DNA from: a virus
Reading direction: 5' to 3' (one strand)
Length of the DNA stretch: 29,916 bases
IMG/VR virus record: IMGVR_UViG_3300036759_000109
Location: 1-29,916 of that record
The notes under the pieces are model-generated. The model ran no database searches. It had not been told where the DNA came from and worked only from the letters and a program-made list of their open reading frames with translations. Shown in pieces: positions 8,534-29,440 of the stretch. The position numbers were made by a program, and so were the translations under genes. The first letter of the stretch is position 1, and the number at the start of each line of letters is the position of its first letter.

Positions 8534-8929
8534 ATGGCAAGAGAGGCATGCAATCACGCGGGATGCAGCAAGCCTCGTGAGGCTCGCGGATTGTGTGTGA
8601 AGCATTACAAGCAATGGCAGCGAGGCACATACCGGGAAGAGGAAGATGAGCCCGAAGCCGACGCCTGGCTATTGCCCGACGATGATGGCTATATTGATCC
8701 TGTAGCTATCGAGGTGGCCGTGCACGGGCTCCGCCCTATCTGCATGACGCAAGCGGAGCGTGAAGTTGCGGCAAGTATCATATTGGATAACGAGGGAAAT
8801 GAGGTAACGCTTCTAGCTCACCTGAGTTTGCCTAGCGCGAAAGCGGCGCGGGAGTTGGCGGCAAAGGTACGCGAGCCAGAAACGGAGGAAGATGAAACCC
8901 CCTTTGGGGGATTTCTGGCGGCAGCGTGA
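8534..8929 (+). CDS. Protein with an N-terminal C-x4-C...C-x2-H zinc motif
   Basis: 131 aa; GAGAGAAGGGGTG lies upstream. Residues 6-24 read CNHAGCSKPREARGLCVKHY, the zinc-binding motif often found at the start of phage HNH nucleases and small DNA-binding proteins (C6, C11, C21, H24). No HNH motif follows; the rest is an acidic domain with one beta/helix region and an acidic tail, so it is not a nuclease on this evidence. Possible nucleic-acid-binding regulator. Confidence 0.7.
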   Translation: MAREACNHAGCSKPREARGLCVKHYKQWQRGTYREEEDEPEADAWLLPDDDGYIDPVAIEVAVHGLRPICMTQAEREVAASIILDNEGNEVTLLAHLSLPSAKAARELAAKVREPETEEDETPFGGFLAAA

Positions 8930-8969: not shown

Positions 8970-9022
8970 GGGGAGCGGGTTAGGGTTTCGGTTTTGCCAC
9001 CTTCCCCCTTAGCCCGCTCCCC
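8970..9022 (+). terminator. 16-bp hairpin directly upstream of the tmRNA-like RNA
   Basis: Bases 8970-8985 pair with 9007-9022 (16 bp, two G-U pairs) around a 21-nt loop. It follows the stop codon at 8929 and ends 4 nt before the RNA at 9027. The absence of a T-tract leaves terminator and RNase III processing site both open. Confidence 0.5.
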
Positions 9023-9026
9023 GCCC

Positions 9027-9163
9027 GGGGGCGGAAGGTATCGACTGATCAGCTAACGGCGGACTCCCGCTTACCGGGCGCGCGTCCGTGTTTGGCGAGT
9101 AAGCGGCACGGATGAGACATCGTTAGCTGGGGCAGGATCGGGGTTCAATTCCCCGCGCCTCCA
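9027..9163 (+). ncRNA. Minimal tmRNA-like RNA (tRNA-like domain plus P2-like helix)
   Basis: Acceptor stem GGGGGCG (9027-9033) pairs with CGCCTCC (9156-9162). Its only wobble is G3-U70 (9029/9160), the alanine identity pair, and the discriminator is A (9163). The 5' side reads GAAGGTATCGAC, matching the GG-xx-UCGAC block of the tmRNA D-loop; a canonical D stem is missing, as in tmRNA. The T arm is CGGGG-TTCAATT-CCCCG (9139-9155), preceded by AGGAT as in actinobacterial tmRNA. CAGCTAACG (9050-9058) pairs perfectly with CGTTAGCTG (9121-9129), in the place of helix P2. The 62-nt interior holds CCGCTTAC/GTAAGCGG (9067-9074/9099-9106) and CGTCCGTG/CACGGATG (9083-9090/9107-9114), which interleave like a pseudoknot. 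Bacterial tmRNAs are about 350 nt; this is 137 nt and shows no clear degron tag. CCA is not encoded. Confidence 0.75.
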
Positions 9164-9192: not shown

Positions 9193-9393
9193 ATGCCACG
9201 GCATAGCGGAGGCGGAGGCGGAACGAAGCGCCGCTACCATCAATCAAAGCGAAACCGCAATGTGAGCAATTACCGGAAGCGCCTAGAGAAGCGGGGGCAG
9301 TCTGCCGCTTCCGTCCGGATGGCTCCGCTTGATATACTTCGGAGGCGCGCAAGAGCACGCGGGGAGCCCGTTGAGGAAGGCGAGGCAGCATGA
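9193..9393 (+). CDS. Small, very basic protein, possible RNA/DNA binder
   Basis: 66 aa, MPRHSGGGGGTKRRYHQSKR at the start, with GAAGGGGCAAGG upstream of the ATG. About a third of the residues are Arg or Lys, in an N-terminal disordered Gly/Arg/Lys segment and a helical middle (NYRKRLEKRG). It starts 29 nt after the tmRNA-like RNA. It lacks SmpB signatures. A nucleic-acid-binding role is inferred only from charge. Confidence 0.6.
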   Translation: MPRHSGGGGGTKRRYHQSKRNRNVSNYRKRLEKRGQSAASVRMAPLDILRRRARARGEPVEEGEAA

Positions 9394-9656
9394 GCACGCT
9401 AGTTAAACTATTTACCCCGTGGTATGACCACGGCCGGAGATTCGTGGGCATCAAGCCAGGCGAGGCAGACAAGCTCGTTGCCCAGGGCTTGACGGCGAGC
9501 TATGCGGAAGGCACGGTTACGATCTCCGATCCGGCTGGGCAGTATGGCACCAAGTATTACCCCGTCAACAAGCATTTGCACCGTAGGCACATCATCAAAT
9601 GGGTTGACGGCTTCAACGAGCGAGCCCATGAGCGGGTCCGTAAGGAGCGGGCCTGA
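9390..9656 (+). CDS. Small protein of unknown function
   Basis: 88 aa; its ATG overlaps the preceding stop codon (ATGA), so the two genes are translationally coupled. Sequence features: YDHGRRFVGIKPGEADKLVA near the start, a beta-rich centre (YAEGTVTISDPAGQYG) and a His/Arg-rich C-terminal helix. No family recognised. A near-perfect repressor-type site lies in its first codons. Confidence 0.65.
   Translation: MSTLVKLFTPWYDHGRRFVGIKPGEADKLVAQGLTASYAEGTVTISDPAGQYGTKYYPVNKHLHRRHIIKWVDGFNERAHERVRKERA
9398..9408 (+). promoter_or_regulatory. Intragenic repressor-type site GCTAGTTAAAC
   Basis: 10/11 match to the dispersed motif within codons 3-7 of the gene at 9390, oriented with transcription. 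Could be chance in a coding sequence; cluster A stoperators also occur within genes (established knowledge). Confidence 0.35.
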
Positions 9657-11659: not shown

Positions 11660-11891
11660 TCGTCTCGTCAACTCCGCGAGTGTCGTCAACCACGAGGCCC
11701 GGAAGCTCCCGCGTGAGCCATCCGGCCGCGAAGCCGGCCACGGCGGCAACCCCGGCCGCAACGAGGCCCGCCGTTGCGGGATCAAGGTTCACGCCCAGGC
11801 GGCCAAGAGCGAGGGCAACGAGGTACACGCCAAGGGAGGTCAATAGCTGGGCTAGCACCTTGCGGGAGATAGGCTTACCGTTGCTCTTCAT
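11652..11891 (-). CDS. Holin (probable)
   Basis: 79 aa from the ATG at 11891, which overlaps the endolysin stop codon (ATGA). Two hydrophobic segments (LLTSLGVYLVALALGRLG and ATAGLVAAGVAAVAGFAAGWL) are separated by a short turn (VNLDP), with a basic N-terminus and a charged, acidic C-terminus. Holins form membrane holes that release the endolysin. Size, topology and position directly after the amidase support the call; no sequence motif defines the family. Confidence 0.75.
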   Translation of the reverse strand: MKSNGKPISRKVLAQLLTSLGVYLVALALGRLGVNLDPATAGLVAAGVAAVAGFAAGWLTRELPGLVVDDTRGVDETIG

Positions 11892-12610
11892 TTCATCACC
11901 CAAAGCCTGAGCCCGGCCGGGAGAGGCTCCGTAGACTCCGCCTCACCCCGGAAAACCCGGTTGACATACTTAGCCAGGGGCCCATCAAGGGGCCCATACT
12001 TCTGGACAGTCATACGGAGGATGGTTGCGGGAGTCATGCCTAGCTTGTCGGCAAGCCCGGCAAGTGAAAGCATCCCCGCAGTTACATAGCTCCCCGGCTT
12101 GGGCGGAGGATCGGCAGGAACACTAAGCACCTTCGCGTTGCGCTCAATGTCGGGAAGCTGGGCAACGACCGGGGCCCCTGGGCATCCGGTATGCCCGCCC
12201 CACGAGGCCCCGCCCAAACCATGCCAGGCAAGCCCCGAGCCTTCCGGCCGCTTAGCGAGCCAGAGCGGGATCTCGTGTGCCTTATGGGCCCAGGCGTAAA
12301 GCTTGGAGACCGCGTTAACCTGAGCGGCCGTCAACGGGTGCCCCGCGAAACCCTCACACTCGCAACCGATAGAAACCCTGTTAGCGTTTGCGGCATGCCA
12401 AGCCGTGTCAGACGTGTTGACCCATTGGTATATGGTCCCGTCTTTGCCAACCCCGAAATGGGCCGAGACCTGAGCGGCCGGGTTATGAAACCAACTGTCC
12501 GTGCCAGCTAGAGAGCCTTGCATGATATGGACGATAAAGAGCTTAGGCTTATTGCCCCCACGGTTGAAGTTAACCGTAAGTGGTCGCCACTGAGCGCCGG
12601 GATATTTCAT
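11888..12610 (-). CDS. Endolysin: N-acetylmuramoyl-L-alanine amidase with C-terminal LysM-like domain
   Basis: 240 aa. It cleaves the amide bond between MurNAc and the peptide stem. The amidase_2/PGRP-like domain (~1-165) has zinc ligands H28 (FIVHIMQG), H140 and C143 (GGHTGCPG), plus conserved AHFGVGKDGTIYQWV and the W-H-A segment. After a Pro-rich linker (PPPKPGS) the C-terminus (MLSLAGLADKLGMTPATILR to PAGLRLWV) follows the LysM pattern and would bind peptidoglycan. No signal peptide, so export relies on the holin downstream. It starts on the last base of the previous stop codon (TAATG). Confidence 0.9.
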   Translation of the reverse strand: MKYPGAQWRPLTVNFNRGGNKPKLFIVHIMQGSLAGTDSWFHNPAAQVSAHFGVGKDGTIYQWVNTSDTAWHAANANRVSIGCECEGFAGHPLTAAQVNAVSKLYAWAHKAHEIPLWLAKRPEGSGLAWHGLGGASWGGHTGCPGAPVVAQLPDIERNAKVLSVPADPPPKPGSYVTAGMLSLAGLADKLGMTPATILRMTVQKYGPLDGPLAKYVNRVFRGEAESTEPLPAGLRLWVMK

Positions 12611-24062: not shown

Positions 24063-25487
24063 TCAGAATGCCGGGGTAACCAATCCGGTACCGTCAATAT
24101 TCTGGATAATCGAGGAATAGCGGGCAAAGGTGTAGGCAAAATAGCCGTACACGACAAGGAGCACGCCCAGAGAAGGCGAGTTAGGCTGTTCAGCCCTGAT
24201 AAAAGCTGGCTGCCCGGCCTGTTCCCAAAGGTGGCACTCATCCTGAGGCACGACATAAACGCGATCCTGGTTAGTCCCAACGCCAAGGTTAGTGACAACG
24301 TTGTTGTCAACCACAACGCCAAGCCCGTTAGGAAGCTGTCCGCGAATCCCGCTCGCATACGAAGAACCCTCGTTTGCGGAACCACCAACCCGGGAATCCC
24401 CGCCCATGTTAACGAGCGGCCAAGTGGAGGTTAGCTGAGACTGGAGCCAGTACCAGCGCCGGCTATGCATGATCACATGAGTTGGCCGGCCCATGGCCAG
24501 AAGTGCCGCCTCAACTCCGGACATCGCGCCAACGACCTTCGTAAACAGCGCCGTGCCCGTGGGAGAGCCCGACGTGTAAGTGTTGGTCACGGAAACCGCA
24601 TCAAGCCCGTTAGTAGCCTGATTAATCAGCGTGTTATCCAGAACGGTAGCGTACCTCTTAAAGAGATCCTGTAGCACAACGTCGCCAATGCCATAGCCGC
24701 GGTCAAGAGCCTGACGGGAGACATTCTGCTGGCCGGCGGCCGTCTGTACCGACACGTTGAGATCGGTCTCAGCCAGGGAGGTTGCCGAAACGCCCGTAAG
24801 CTGAGTTGCTTGGAGAGCCGCGCTCGTGGCCGTGGTAATCTTCGGGATCGTAACCGTCATGCCCTGATCAGGCAGAATGTGATGGTTACACACGTCCGCA
24901 AACGGGCGAAGGTTCGCAACGGCCGGAGCGGTCATATCCACAAGGAACTGAGGCACAACGAGCCCGCCCAGGGCGGTTGTCGCAAGGTCGCCTGCCGCCC
25001 TCTGGAAATACTGCGGACGCTCAACGCGCTCTTCGTGCATATGGCGGGCAAGTCTAGTCCCGGCCGAAACGTCGTTGTTAAGGAACTGGTGGCAAACGTC
25101 ACGGATAAACATATCCCCGGAAGGATCGTTACCCTTGTGATAGGTGCGCTCTTCCTTGCCAACCCGGGCAACCTCGTCATACTTCGGACGCCTAACCGGG
25201 GTTTCCCGCGTCTCACGAGCGCGGGCCTCCGCCTCGGCTTCCTCAGCCTTGACCTTCGTAGCGTTGGCGAGCTTGCGCTTAATGCCCGCCTGGGCTTCCT
25301 TGGAGCCCTCAACGGCGGCAAAGAGATCCTCTGAGCGCTTGTCTTCCTCTTCGCTCAGGTTAGAACGGCCCTCATTTCCGGCCGTCTCAATCATGAGCTT
25401 GATCTCCGCGCGAGCCTTCTGCTCACGCTTCTGCTCTGCCTCAAGCTCAACCTCAATCGAGGAAATCAGTTCGTCAATCGTGGCCAT
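24063..25487 (-). CDS. HK97-fold major capsid protein
   Basis: 474 aa from the ATG at 25487 (MATIDELISSIEVELEAEQK), GGAG 9 nt upstream. Residues ~1-120 are the charged coiled-coil delta domain that acts as built-in scaffold and is removed by the prohead protease; the mature N-terminus is likely in the GNDPSGDMFIRD to AGDLATTALGG region. The rest shows HK97 features: GLVVPQFLVDMTAPAVANLRP, TIPKITTATSAA, PTHVIMHSRRWYWL and DQDRVY-like VGTNQDRVYVVPQDE. It forms the icosahedral shell. Protease and portal lie directly upstream, as usual. Confidence 0.93.
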   Translation of the reverse strand: MATIDELISSIEVELEAEQKREQKARAEIKLMIETAGNEGRSNLSEEEDKRSEDLFAAVEGSKEAQAGIKRKLANATKVKAEEAEAEARARETRETPVRRPKYDEVARVGKEERTYHKGNDPSGDMFIRDVCHQFLNNDVSAGTRLARHMHEERVERPQYFQRAAGDLATTALGGLVVPQFLVDMTAPAVANLRPFADVCNHHILPDQGMTVTIPKITTATSAALQATQLTGVSATSLAETDLNVSVQTAAGQQNVSRQALDRGYGIGDVVLQDLFKRYATVLDNTLINQATNGLDAVSVTNTYTSGSPTGTALFTKVVGAMSGVEAALLAMGRPTHVIMHSRRWYWLQSQLTSTWPLVNMGGDSRVGGSANEGSSYASGIRGQLPNGLGVVVDNNVVTNLGVGTNQDRVYVVPQDECHLWEQAGQPAFIRAEQPNSPSLGVLLVVYGYFAYTFARYSSIIQNIDGTGLVTPAF

Positions 25488-25539
25488 AGCGGCACACTCC
25501 AATCATTCAAAGAAATGTGATCAACGATTGGCCTTCGTG

Positions 25540-27617: not shown

Positions 27618-27809
27618 TTACAGCCTCGCGTCTATACGAAGCAACAGGACCCCGCCGATAATGAGCCCGGCCGGAAGGTAAATGAGCGAAGCCCCGAACG
27701 AGATAAGCACCATGCCCGCGATCCCGGGCAGCGTTGCCGCGATCCTGGCCGACAGTAGCGGCCGGAGCAAGCCCCGAGCCCGCGAGAGGCTAGCGGTAAT
27801 AGCCGTCAT
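27618..27809 (-). CDS. Small membrane protein between terminase and portal genes
   Basis: 63 aa; the ATG overlaps the terminase stop codon. Two hydrophobic segments (AATLPGIAGMVLISFGASLI and LPAGLIIGGVLLLRI) after a basic, amphipathic N-terminus. Small membrane proteins are often found in this place in actinobacteriophages; no function is established to my knowledge. Confidence 0.65.
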   Translation of the reverse strand: MTAITASLSRARGLLRPLLSARIAATLPGIAGMVLISFGASLIYLPAGLIIGGVLLLRIDARL

Positions 27810-29440
27810 GTATCCACCTTCAATGCCTCTAGCACGGTCTCTAGCTCAGCGTCCGTAATCAGCTTTTGATCCCTCAGCCGTTGCAAATCCGAGGGGCTAT
27901 AGAATCCCGCACGGGCGAGGCGGGTAATCTCGTCAACATCAAAATGCACGGAATCCCGTGCCTCATAATCTGTATCCTCGCCAAACTTCATGAAGCCCCA
28001 TAGAGCAAACGTCACGGCAACAAGAGGCGAGAGATCAACCGCGGCATTCTTCTCGTCCCAGGCCCACGATTCGGAAAGAGTCCGCTTGTCGGCCCCGGCC
28101 AGCGCATCCCGCAAAGGCTTCTGGCGGAGATGCCACACGAGATCATCACGGAGCGAGTCAAAGAATTGCCCGCAAGCATGCCCCACGTCTTGAGTCGTAA
28201 GCTTTACGACGTTGAATTTCTGCCGCTCCAAATCATCAACGAGGGAGCCAGAAGCCCCCCGGGGGTTGATGATCCAGGCGGGCGAGTGCCAGCGCTCTTG
28301 AAGCTCCACGCAACGAGGCACAACCCAGTTGGTACCGGGCCTCCGGTCGGCAACCTCAATCCCCATCCGGCCATCTGGCCGGGCTCCCGCCAGGCCGATA
28401 GACGCCCATTTGCGATCCGGGGAGACATTGACCGCGAAGACGGGACGGGCCGGGCGGGCAGGATCATCATTGTTGTCCTGGGTTGCATCCCACCATTTAC
28501 GCGGGATGACAAGCCAGCCATCCAGCGGGGCCGGGTACTGGCCGACTCCCATACGCTCCCGGAGCCACTCCGTCTCATCCATAGCCTCTTTCTCTTTGAC
28601 TATGTAATCTTCGGAGATCCGGATACCTAGAGCCGGGTTGGCGCGGGCAACAGAGCGTATATCGTCCGGATCATCGTGGGCTTTACAGGATGGGTCGCAT
28701 TCCTCCCCGTGAGCGTTAATGCTCCACTCAAGGAAAACGAGGGAAGGCGAGCTACCCGCAACCCCGCGCCTTCTCACCTTCGCTAGCTGCGTTGAGGTGA
28801 TCATCCCCGCGCTAGCCATATACAGGACTTGAGGGTTGGGCCTGGCCGAGAGCGTTGGAAGCGTAGCCCCGACCTTGGCCGCGTCAAGGATCATGGCTTC
28901 GTCATAAATGACGAGATCCCCGGTAAAGCCCCGGCCGCTCCCGCCCGACCGGGCGAGGAACCTTAGCCGCTTCTCAGCCCTCCGAGTTATGTGCCTTCCG
29001 CCTGGGCCCATGATGATTGTTGGGGAAGGCAGAAGCGTTATGCCCTCTTGCCCATGGGAATCGCTATATTTCTTTATCCTACGGTCAAGGTCTGGAGTGT
29101 TTTGTATCAGATACTTGACGCGAAAATAGGCCTCTTCCGCAGTTTTAAACTCGTGTGCCGTGTGAATGATCAAGCGATCGGAGGGGAAGAGGAAGAGGCC
29201 GGCTAGCTCCCTGGCCTCAATGATGCTGCCCTTACCGTTTTGACGCCCAAGGATGGCGAGAAATTCAAACCCGCTCCATTTGCCGTCAGTCCTTACGCTA
29301 ACCATCTTGTCTAGCGCGAAGGATTGCCAGTCATCAAGGAAGAGGCTTGCCGAGGCGGCAAGCTCTATCGCCTCGGCCCCGTATGATTTGGCTATATCTT
29401 GCGGATATGAGAAGAGCCGCGGTCTCTGCTCACCTATCAA
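27806..29440 (-). CDS. Terminase large subunit
   Basis: 544 aa from the TTG at 29440, which overlaps the preceding stop codon (TTGA). The motor ATPase and nuclease cut and pump concatemeric DNA into the prohead. Walker A is GRQNGKGS (65-72), Walker B is DLVIYDEAM (D180, E181), and the coupling motif is in YMASAGM. The C-terminal RNase H-like nuclease domain starts near FAVNVSPDRKWASIGLAG with a likely metal-binding Asp, and SLVDDLE and the last Asp-rich stretch complete it. Length is usual. Confidence 0.95.
   Translation of the reverse strand: MIGEQRPRLFSYPQDIAKSYGAEAIELAASASLFLDDWQSFALDKMVSVRTDGKWSGFEFLAILGRQNGKGSIIEARELAGLFLFPSDRLIIHTAHEFKTAEEAYFRVKYLIQNTPDLDRRIKKYSDSHGQEGITLLPSPTIIMGPGGRHITRRAEKRLRFLARSGGSGRGFTGDLVIYDEAMILDAAKVGATLPTLSARPNPQVLYMASAGMITSTQLAKVRRRGVAGSSPSLVFLEWSINAHGEECDPSCKAHDDPDDIRSVARANPALGIRISEDYIVKEKEAMDETEWLRERMGVGQYPAPLDGWLVIPRKWWDATQDNNDDPARPARPVFAVNVSPDRKWASIGLAGARPDGRMGIEVADRRPGTNWVVPRCVELQERWHSPAWIINPRGASGSLVDDLERQKFNVVKLTTQDVGHACGQFFDSLRDDLVWHLRQKPLRDALAGADKRTLSESWAWDEKNAAVDLSPLVAVTFALWGFMKFGEDTDYEARDSVHFDVDEITRLARAGFYSPSDLQRLRDQKLITDAELETVLEALKVDT

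Follow-up and report, generated by a model that had tools for sequence, protein, structure and literature searches.

The closest described relative of the element studied here is the 'TLD only' tmRNA of mycobacteriophage DS6A (tmID 11587; Mao et al. 2009, cited through PMC4131195 and PMC11915505), which is described as little more than the TLD. A TLD-only molecule similar to that of DS6A strongly inhibits tmRNA, perhaps by titrating SmpB, whether or not it can be charged (PMC4131195), and the DS6A form is stated to inhibit endogenous tmRNA in Escherichia coli (PMC11915505). The 2025 tmRNA database lists only 9 standard-form sequences without a coding part among 97,179, and tagless mitochondrial and plastid forms have been noted (PMC11915505). 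A phage tmRNA without a message is thus known, as far as the sources consulted show, from one phage, and no paper describing such RNAs as widespread was found in the literature searched.

The window analysed, the whole 29,916-nt stretch of IMG/VR virus record IMGVR_UViG_3300036759_000109, contains a 137-nt gene that the first-pass annotation described as a tmRNA-like RNA with a full tRNA-like domain and P2 helix but almost no message part. All of the features that it listed were confirmed, and the parts of the locus are as follows.

9027..9163, + strand: message-less tmRNA gene, 137 nt, CCA not encoded
9027..9033, + strand: 5' strand of the acceptor stem, GGGGGCG, with G3 of the G3-U70 pair at 9029
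9037..9045, + strand: tmRNA D block, GGUAUCGAC
9050..9058, + strand: 5' strand of P2, CAGCUAACG
9059..9120, + strand: 62-nt interior between the P2 strands (the cap), helices inferred
9121..9129, + strand: 3' strand of P2, CGUUAGCUG
9139..9155, + strand: T arm, CGGGG-UUCAAUU-CCCCG
9156..9163, + strand: 3' strand of the acceptor stem, CGCCUCC, with U70 at 9160, and discriminator A73 at 9163
8971..9022, + strand: strong predicted hairpin of about 16 bp directly upstream, without a U-run, perhaps an RNase III or other processing site, though not needed for the present conclusions

The acceptor stem paired at 7/7 positions with G3-U70 as the only wobble, and the 5' acceptor strand is followed by GAA and the D block. 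The Rfam tmRNA model RF00023 matched the element from model position 1 to 374 with 42.7 bits and an E value of 1.3e-17 on the whole record, slightly under the curators' cut-off of 47 bits, so that default annotation misses it. The similarity covered the acceptor, D block, P2, linker and T arm and was thus not limited to the T arm. A P2 run of 9 Watson–Crick pairs in this geometry occurred in 1 of 10,000 shuffles. ARAGORN also called a tmRNA here, though it placed the start at 8971, giving 194 nt. The cap also allows an 8-bp helix, 9067-9074/9099-9106, a run of 8 occurring in 2.2% of shuffles, which crosses a second helix, 9083-9090/9107-9114. Both together would form a tight pseudoknot, but with no nucleotide between the two 3' strands they look strained, and the predicted minimum-energy fold keeps only the second; the full 8+8-bp pseudoknot is not claimed.

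The record is a piece of an actinophage-like temperate phage with a serine integrase (1076-2527), an amidase-type endolysin (11888-12610), a major head protein (24063-25502), a head maturation protease and a terminase (27806-29440), whose best phage matches are in phages of Rhodococcus, Arthrobacter and Mycobacterium at under 60% identity. A 25-kb contig overlaps both ends of the window, suggesting a genome of about 45 kb. The RNA lies in a rightward run of short genes, after 8534-8929, which has a weak HNH match, and before a 66-aa frame that starts at 9193. A blastn search of phages with the element gave short fragments, the neighbouring regions 8534-8929 and 9390-9656 had no phage matches, and relatives of the terminase and integrase in viral contigs did not cover the element.

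To search for relatives, a DNA pattern for the tRNA-like domain with a short interior was scanned through IMG/VR and GTDB contigs. A first version mostly hit tandem tRNAs, because GGNNTCGAC also fits a T arm. The refined pattern fixed U70, C71, C72, A73, the inner T stem and the D block, and left free the whole 5' acceptor strand, the partners of acceptor pairs 4-7, the outer T stem and P2. Acceptor pairing was bimodal, being 7/7 or 5/7 and less, with one hit of 6/7. Hits with 5/7 or less were treated as chance, among them pieces of canonical tmRNA and tRNAs, though the 6/7 hit and some plausible hits with 4/7 under the fixed linker lengths were also left out of the count, as were two that may be still shorter members starting at GGGGGTG in another register. 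Hits from Burkholderiaceae and Atopobiaceae were left out of the statistics, as was one at a contig edge that was used in one alignment only. The Burkholderiaceae gene gave a 140-143-nt tmRNA match scoring 118 bits, the best of its genome, and is perhaps a tmRNA with a large internal deletion or an assembly artefact. Ruegeria phage RpAliso looked like a normal two-piece tmRNA on inspection. The 37 distinct 7/7 sequences kept, comprising the window element, 27 viral and 9 bacterial sequences, were 84-137 nt long. Their free acceptor and T-stem pairs use several pair types (GC, CG, AT, TA), which is covariation, GGAC precedes the T stem in most, and P2 exceeded shuffles at p<0.05 in 18 of 37. 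In the next longer interior bin, 134-164 nt, no hit had a paired acceptor, indicating that these sequences form a size class apart from canonical tmRNA.

Although position 3 was free and A3-U70 would have passed, all 37 sequences have G3-U70, and a control scan for C70 gave only two hits, both chance. Charging with alanine is therefore very probably under selection, which speaks against decay. GCN-start frames with an in-frame stop inside the interior occurred in 19 of 37 members, against 22.1 +/- 2.7 expected from shuffles. Both of the tag frames named in the first-pass annotation are open, but tag-like frames are thus no commoner than in shuffles, and the tag readings are not supported.

Members of the class were also found in cultured phages. 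Streptomyces phage BRock (NC_048650.1) has an unannotated 78-nt member scoring 64.5 bits, over the cut-off (minus strand). Homologues lie at the same place in a tRNA cluster, after tRNA-Val(tac), in LuckySocke, GiJojo, Alone3 and pSt2308, and in GiJojo a hypothetical protein is annotated over it. These five phages hold 77-78-nt versions and no full-length tmRNA. Phages Tomas, Naboo and Riptide have a related but diverged copy, in which G3-U70 is kept while the D block and GGAC are changed, and also a separate 269-275-nt tmRNA, annotated with a tag in Riptide. G3-U70 is kept in all six sequences tabulated, while P2 changes sequence and stays mostly paired. None of the 46 phage or virus records tested, including the window, encodes SmpB; among the 35 IMG/VR records, one (G014) also holds a canonical tmRNA.

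In Saprospiraceae and Balneolaceae, a 116-137-nt member coexists with SmpB in 10 of 10 genomes and, in seven of the ten, with a full-length tmRNA match. The alignment of ten showed compensatory changes in 18 of 32 predicted pairs, including P2. In a sample of 150 Saprospiraceae genomes only 3 carried it, all already known from the scan, suggesting that it is accessory, though strict filters may lose some. In six of nine loci with enough flank, a same-strand PcfJ-like gene (PF14284 in the three tested) follows within 700 nt of the start of the RNA, which lies 200-670 nt upstream of it; in one of these loci the PcfJ-like gene has ankyrin repeats. Some loci also hold NADAR-like, ADP-ribosylglycohydrolase-like and DUF4291 genes. 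The arrangement may represent a two-part RNA–protein system.

Considering these results, we favour, with only moderate confidence in the absence of expression, charging or binding data, a scenario in which the element is a phage-encoded, message-less tmRNA that blocks or diverts trans-translation. The tRNA-like domain and P2 are complete, the alanine identity pair is kept across the class, there is no sign of a message, and the record encodes no SmpB. We infer that the transcript is trimmed like a tRNA, receives its CCA, is alanylated by host AlaRS, binds host EF-Tu and SmpB and enters the empty A site of ribosomes stalled on broken mRNA. Having no resume codon, it would add at most one alanine and could provide neither tag nor stop codon, thereby occupying SmpB and stalled ribosomes and keeping canonical tmRNA from tagging the nascent (phage) proteins. 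The cap over P2 probably protects the short RNA and replaces the pseudoknot ring. The inhibition reported for the TLD-only molecule is the precedent for a decoy, one of the options raised in the first-pass annotation, which did not cite it. However, that inhibition does not need charging, so a pure SmpB sponge would not need the strictly kept alanine identity, and the presence of a longer tmRNA and a diverged short relative in Tomas, Naboo and Riptide, and of both kinds in G014, is odd for an inhibitor.

The tension over charging leaves a real share for a tagless rescue RNA, which remains possible though less likely. In this case the charged RNA with SmpB would enter stalled ribosomes and take over the peptide as peptidyl-Ala-RNA, and the complex would then be cleared by peptidyl-tRNA hydrolase or another release factor, rescuing ribosomes during infection without proteolytic tagging, as has been suggested for mitochondrial tmRNA. 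The strictly kept charging signal, the retention of mitochondrial tmRNAs without a reading frame together with SmpB (PMC11915505), and the location of many members among phage tRNAs, as expected of translation helpers, are consistent with this reading. However, no release route for a message-less tmRNA is known, and the related molecule tested in E. coli inhibits. Message-less tmRNAs may also be a widespread RNA class of phages and of accessory bacterial loci that reprograms ribosome rescue, the charged RNA ending translation without tagging as a counter-defence or infection-control device and, in Saprospiraceae and Balneolaceae, forming the RNA half of a two-part system with a PcfJ-like protein; we regard this only as a tentative possibility.

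Another use of the tRNA-like domain, such as a sink for AlaRS or EF-Tu, a processing or stability element of the early phage mRNA, or the RNA part of a separate system such as the bacterial PcfJ-like loci, is doubtful. The PcfJ-like genes and the strong hairpin upstream of the element are in its favour, but the tmRNA-specific D block, GGAC-type linker and P2, which are not needed for AlaRS alone, are kept, and no PcfJ-like domain was found in the window proteins tested. A miniature tmRNA that still encodes a tag (ANGGLPLTGRASVFGE or ADSRLPGARPCLASKRHG in the window) is unlikely: two frames are open, and one phage subfamily keeps GCAAATACG...stop frames of 8 codons (ANTAGLTE or ANTVGMFK), but such frames are at chance level across the class, the first frame in the window starts inside the 5' strand of P2, neither follows a PK1-like knot, and neither ends like a degron. 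A decayed ssrA copy, attachment-site remnant or chance resemblance, though compatible with a score just under the Rfam cut-off and with the apparent habit of many phages of integrating at ssrA and carrying its 3' end, is very unlikely given that the element is complete from 5' to 3' end (7.9-8.1 kb from 1 to the element and about 6.5 kb from a serine integrase gene), has an intact G3-U70, P2 and T arm and a low E value, and shares its architecture with dozens of other genomes.

The element is thus a genuine message-less tmRNA and one of a widespread class; the breadth of the class, the kept alanine identity, the structured caps and the bacterial copies beside PcfJ-like genes are, as far as the sources consulted show, new here. 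It shares with canonical one-piece tmRNA (ssrA, RF00023) the acceptor with G3-U70, D block, P2, linker and T arm, but shows no sign of a message with resume codon, tag frame and stop, lacks the PK1-PK4 series, with at most one possible tight knot in the cap, and measures 137 nt against about 350-385. It is not a permuted two-piece tmRNA, being in one piece in 5' to 3' order with only a partial match to RF04321 (22.7 bits), nor a tRNA, since it has no D stem and ARAGORN gave no tRNA here. Mitochondrial tmRNAs without a reading frame (RF02544; jakobids and others) likewise keep the tRNA-like domain and have lost the message, but are organellar, mostly have permuted two-piece genes and occur with their own imported SmpB (PMC11915505). 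The 77-78-nt RNAs of BRock, LuckySocke, GiJojo, Alone3 and pSt2308 share with the element the acceptor with G3-U70, GGAC, T arm and P2, with no message and no SmpB, but have a shorter conserved cap (AAAGCC...GGAAC-like) without close sequence relation to that of the window and lie in tRNA clusters. With the DS6A RNA, the element shares a phage-encoded tmRNA tRNA-like domain without a coding part, and in the window this domain is accompanied by a 9-bp P2 and a 62-nt structured cap.
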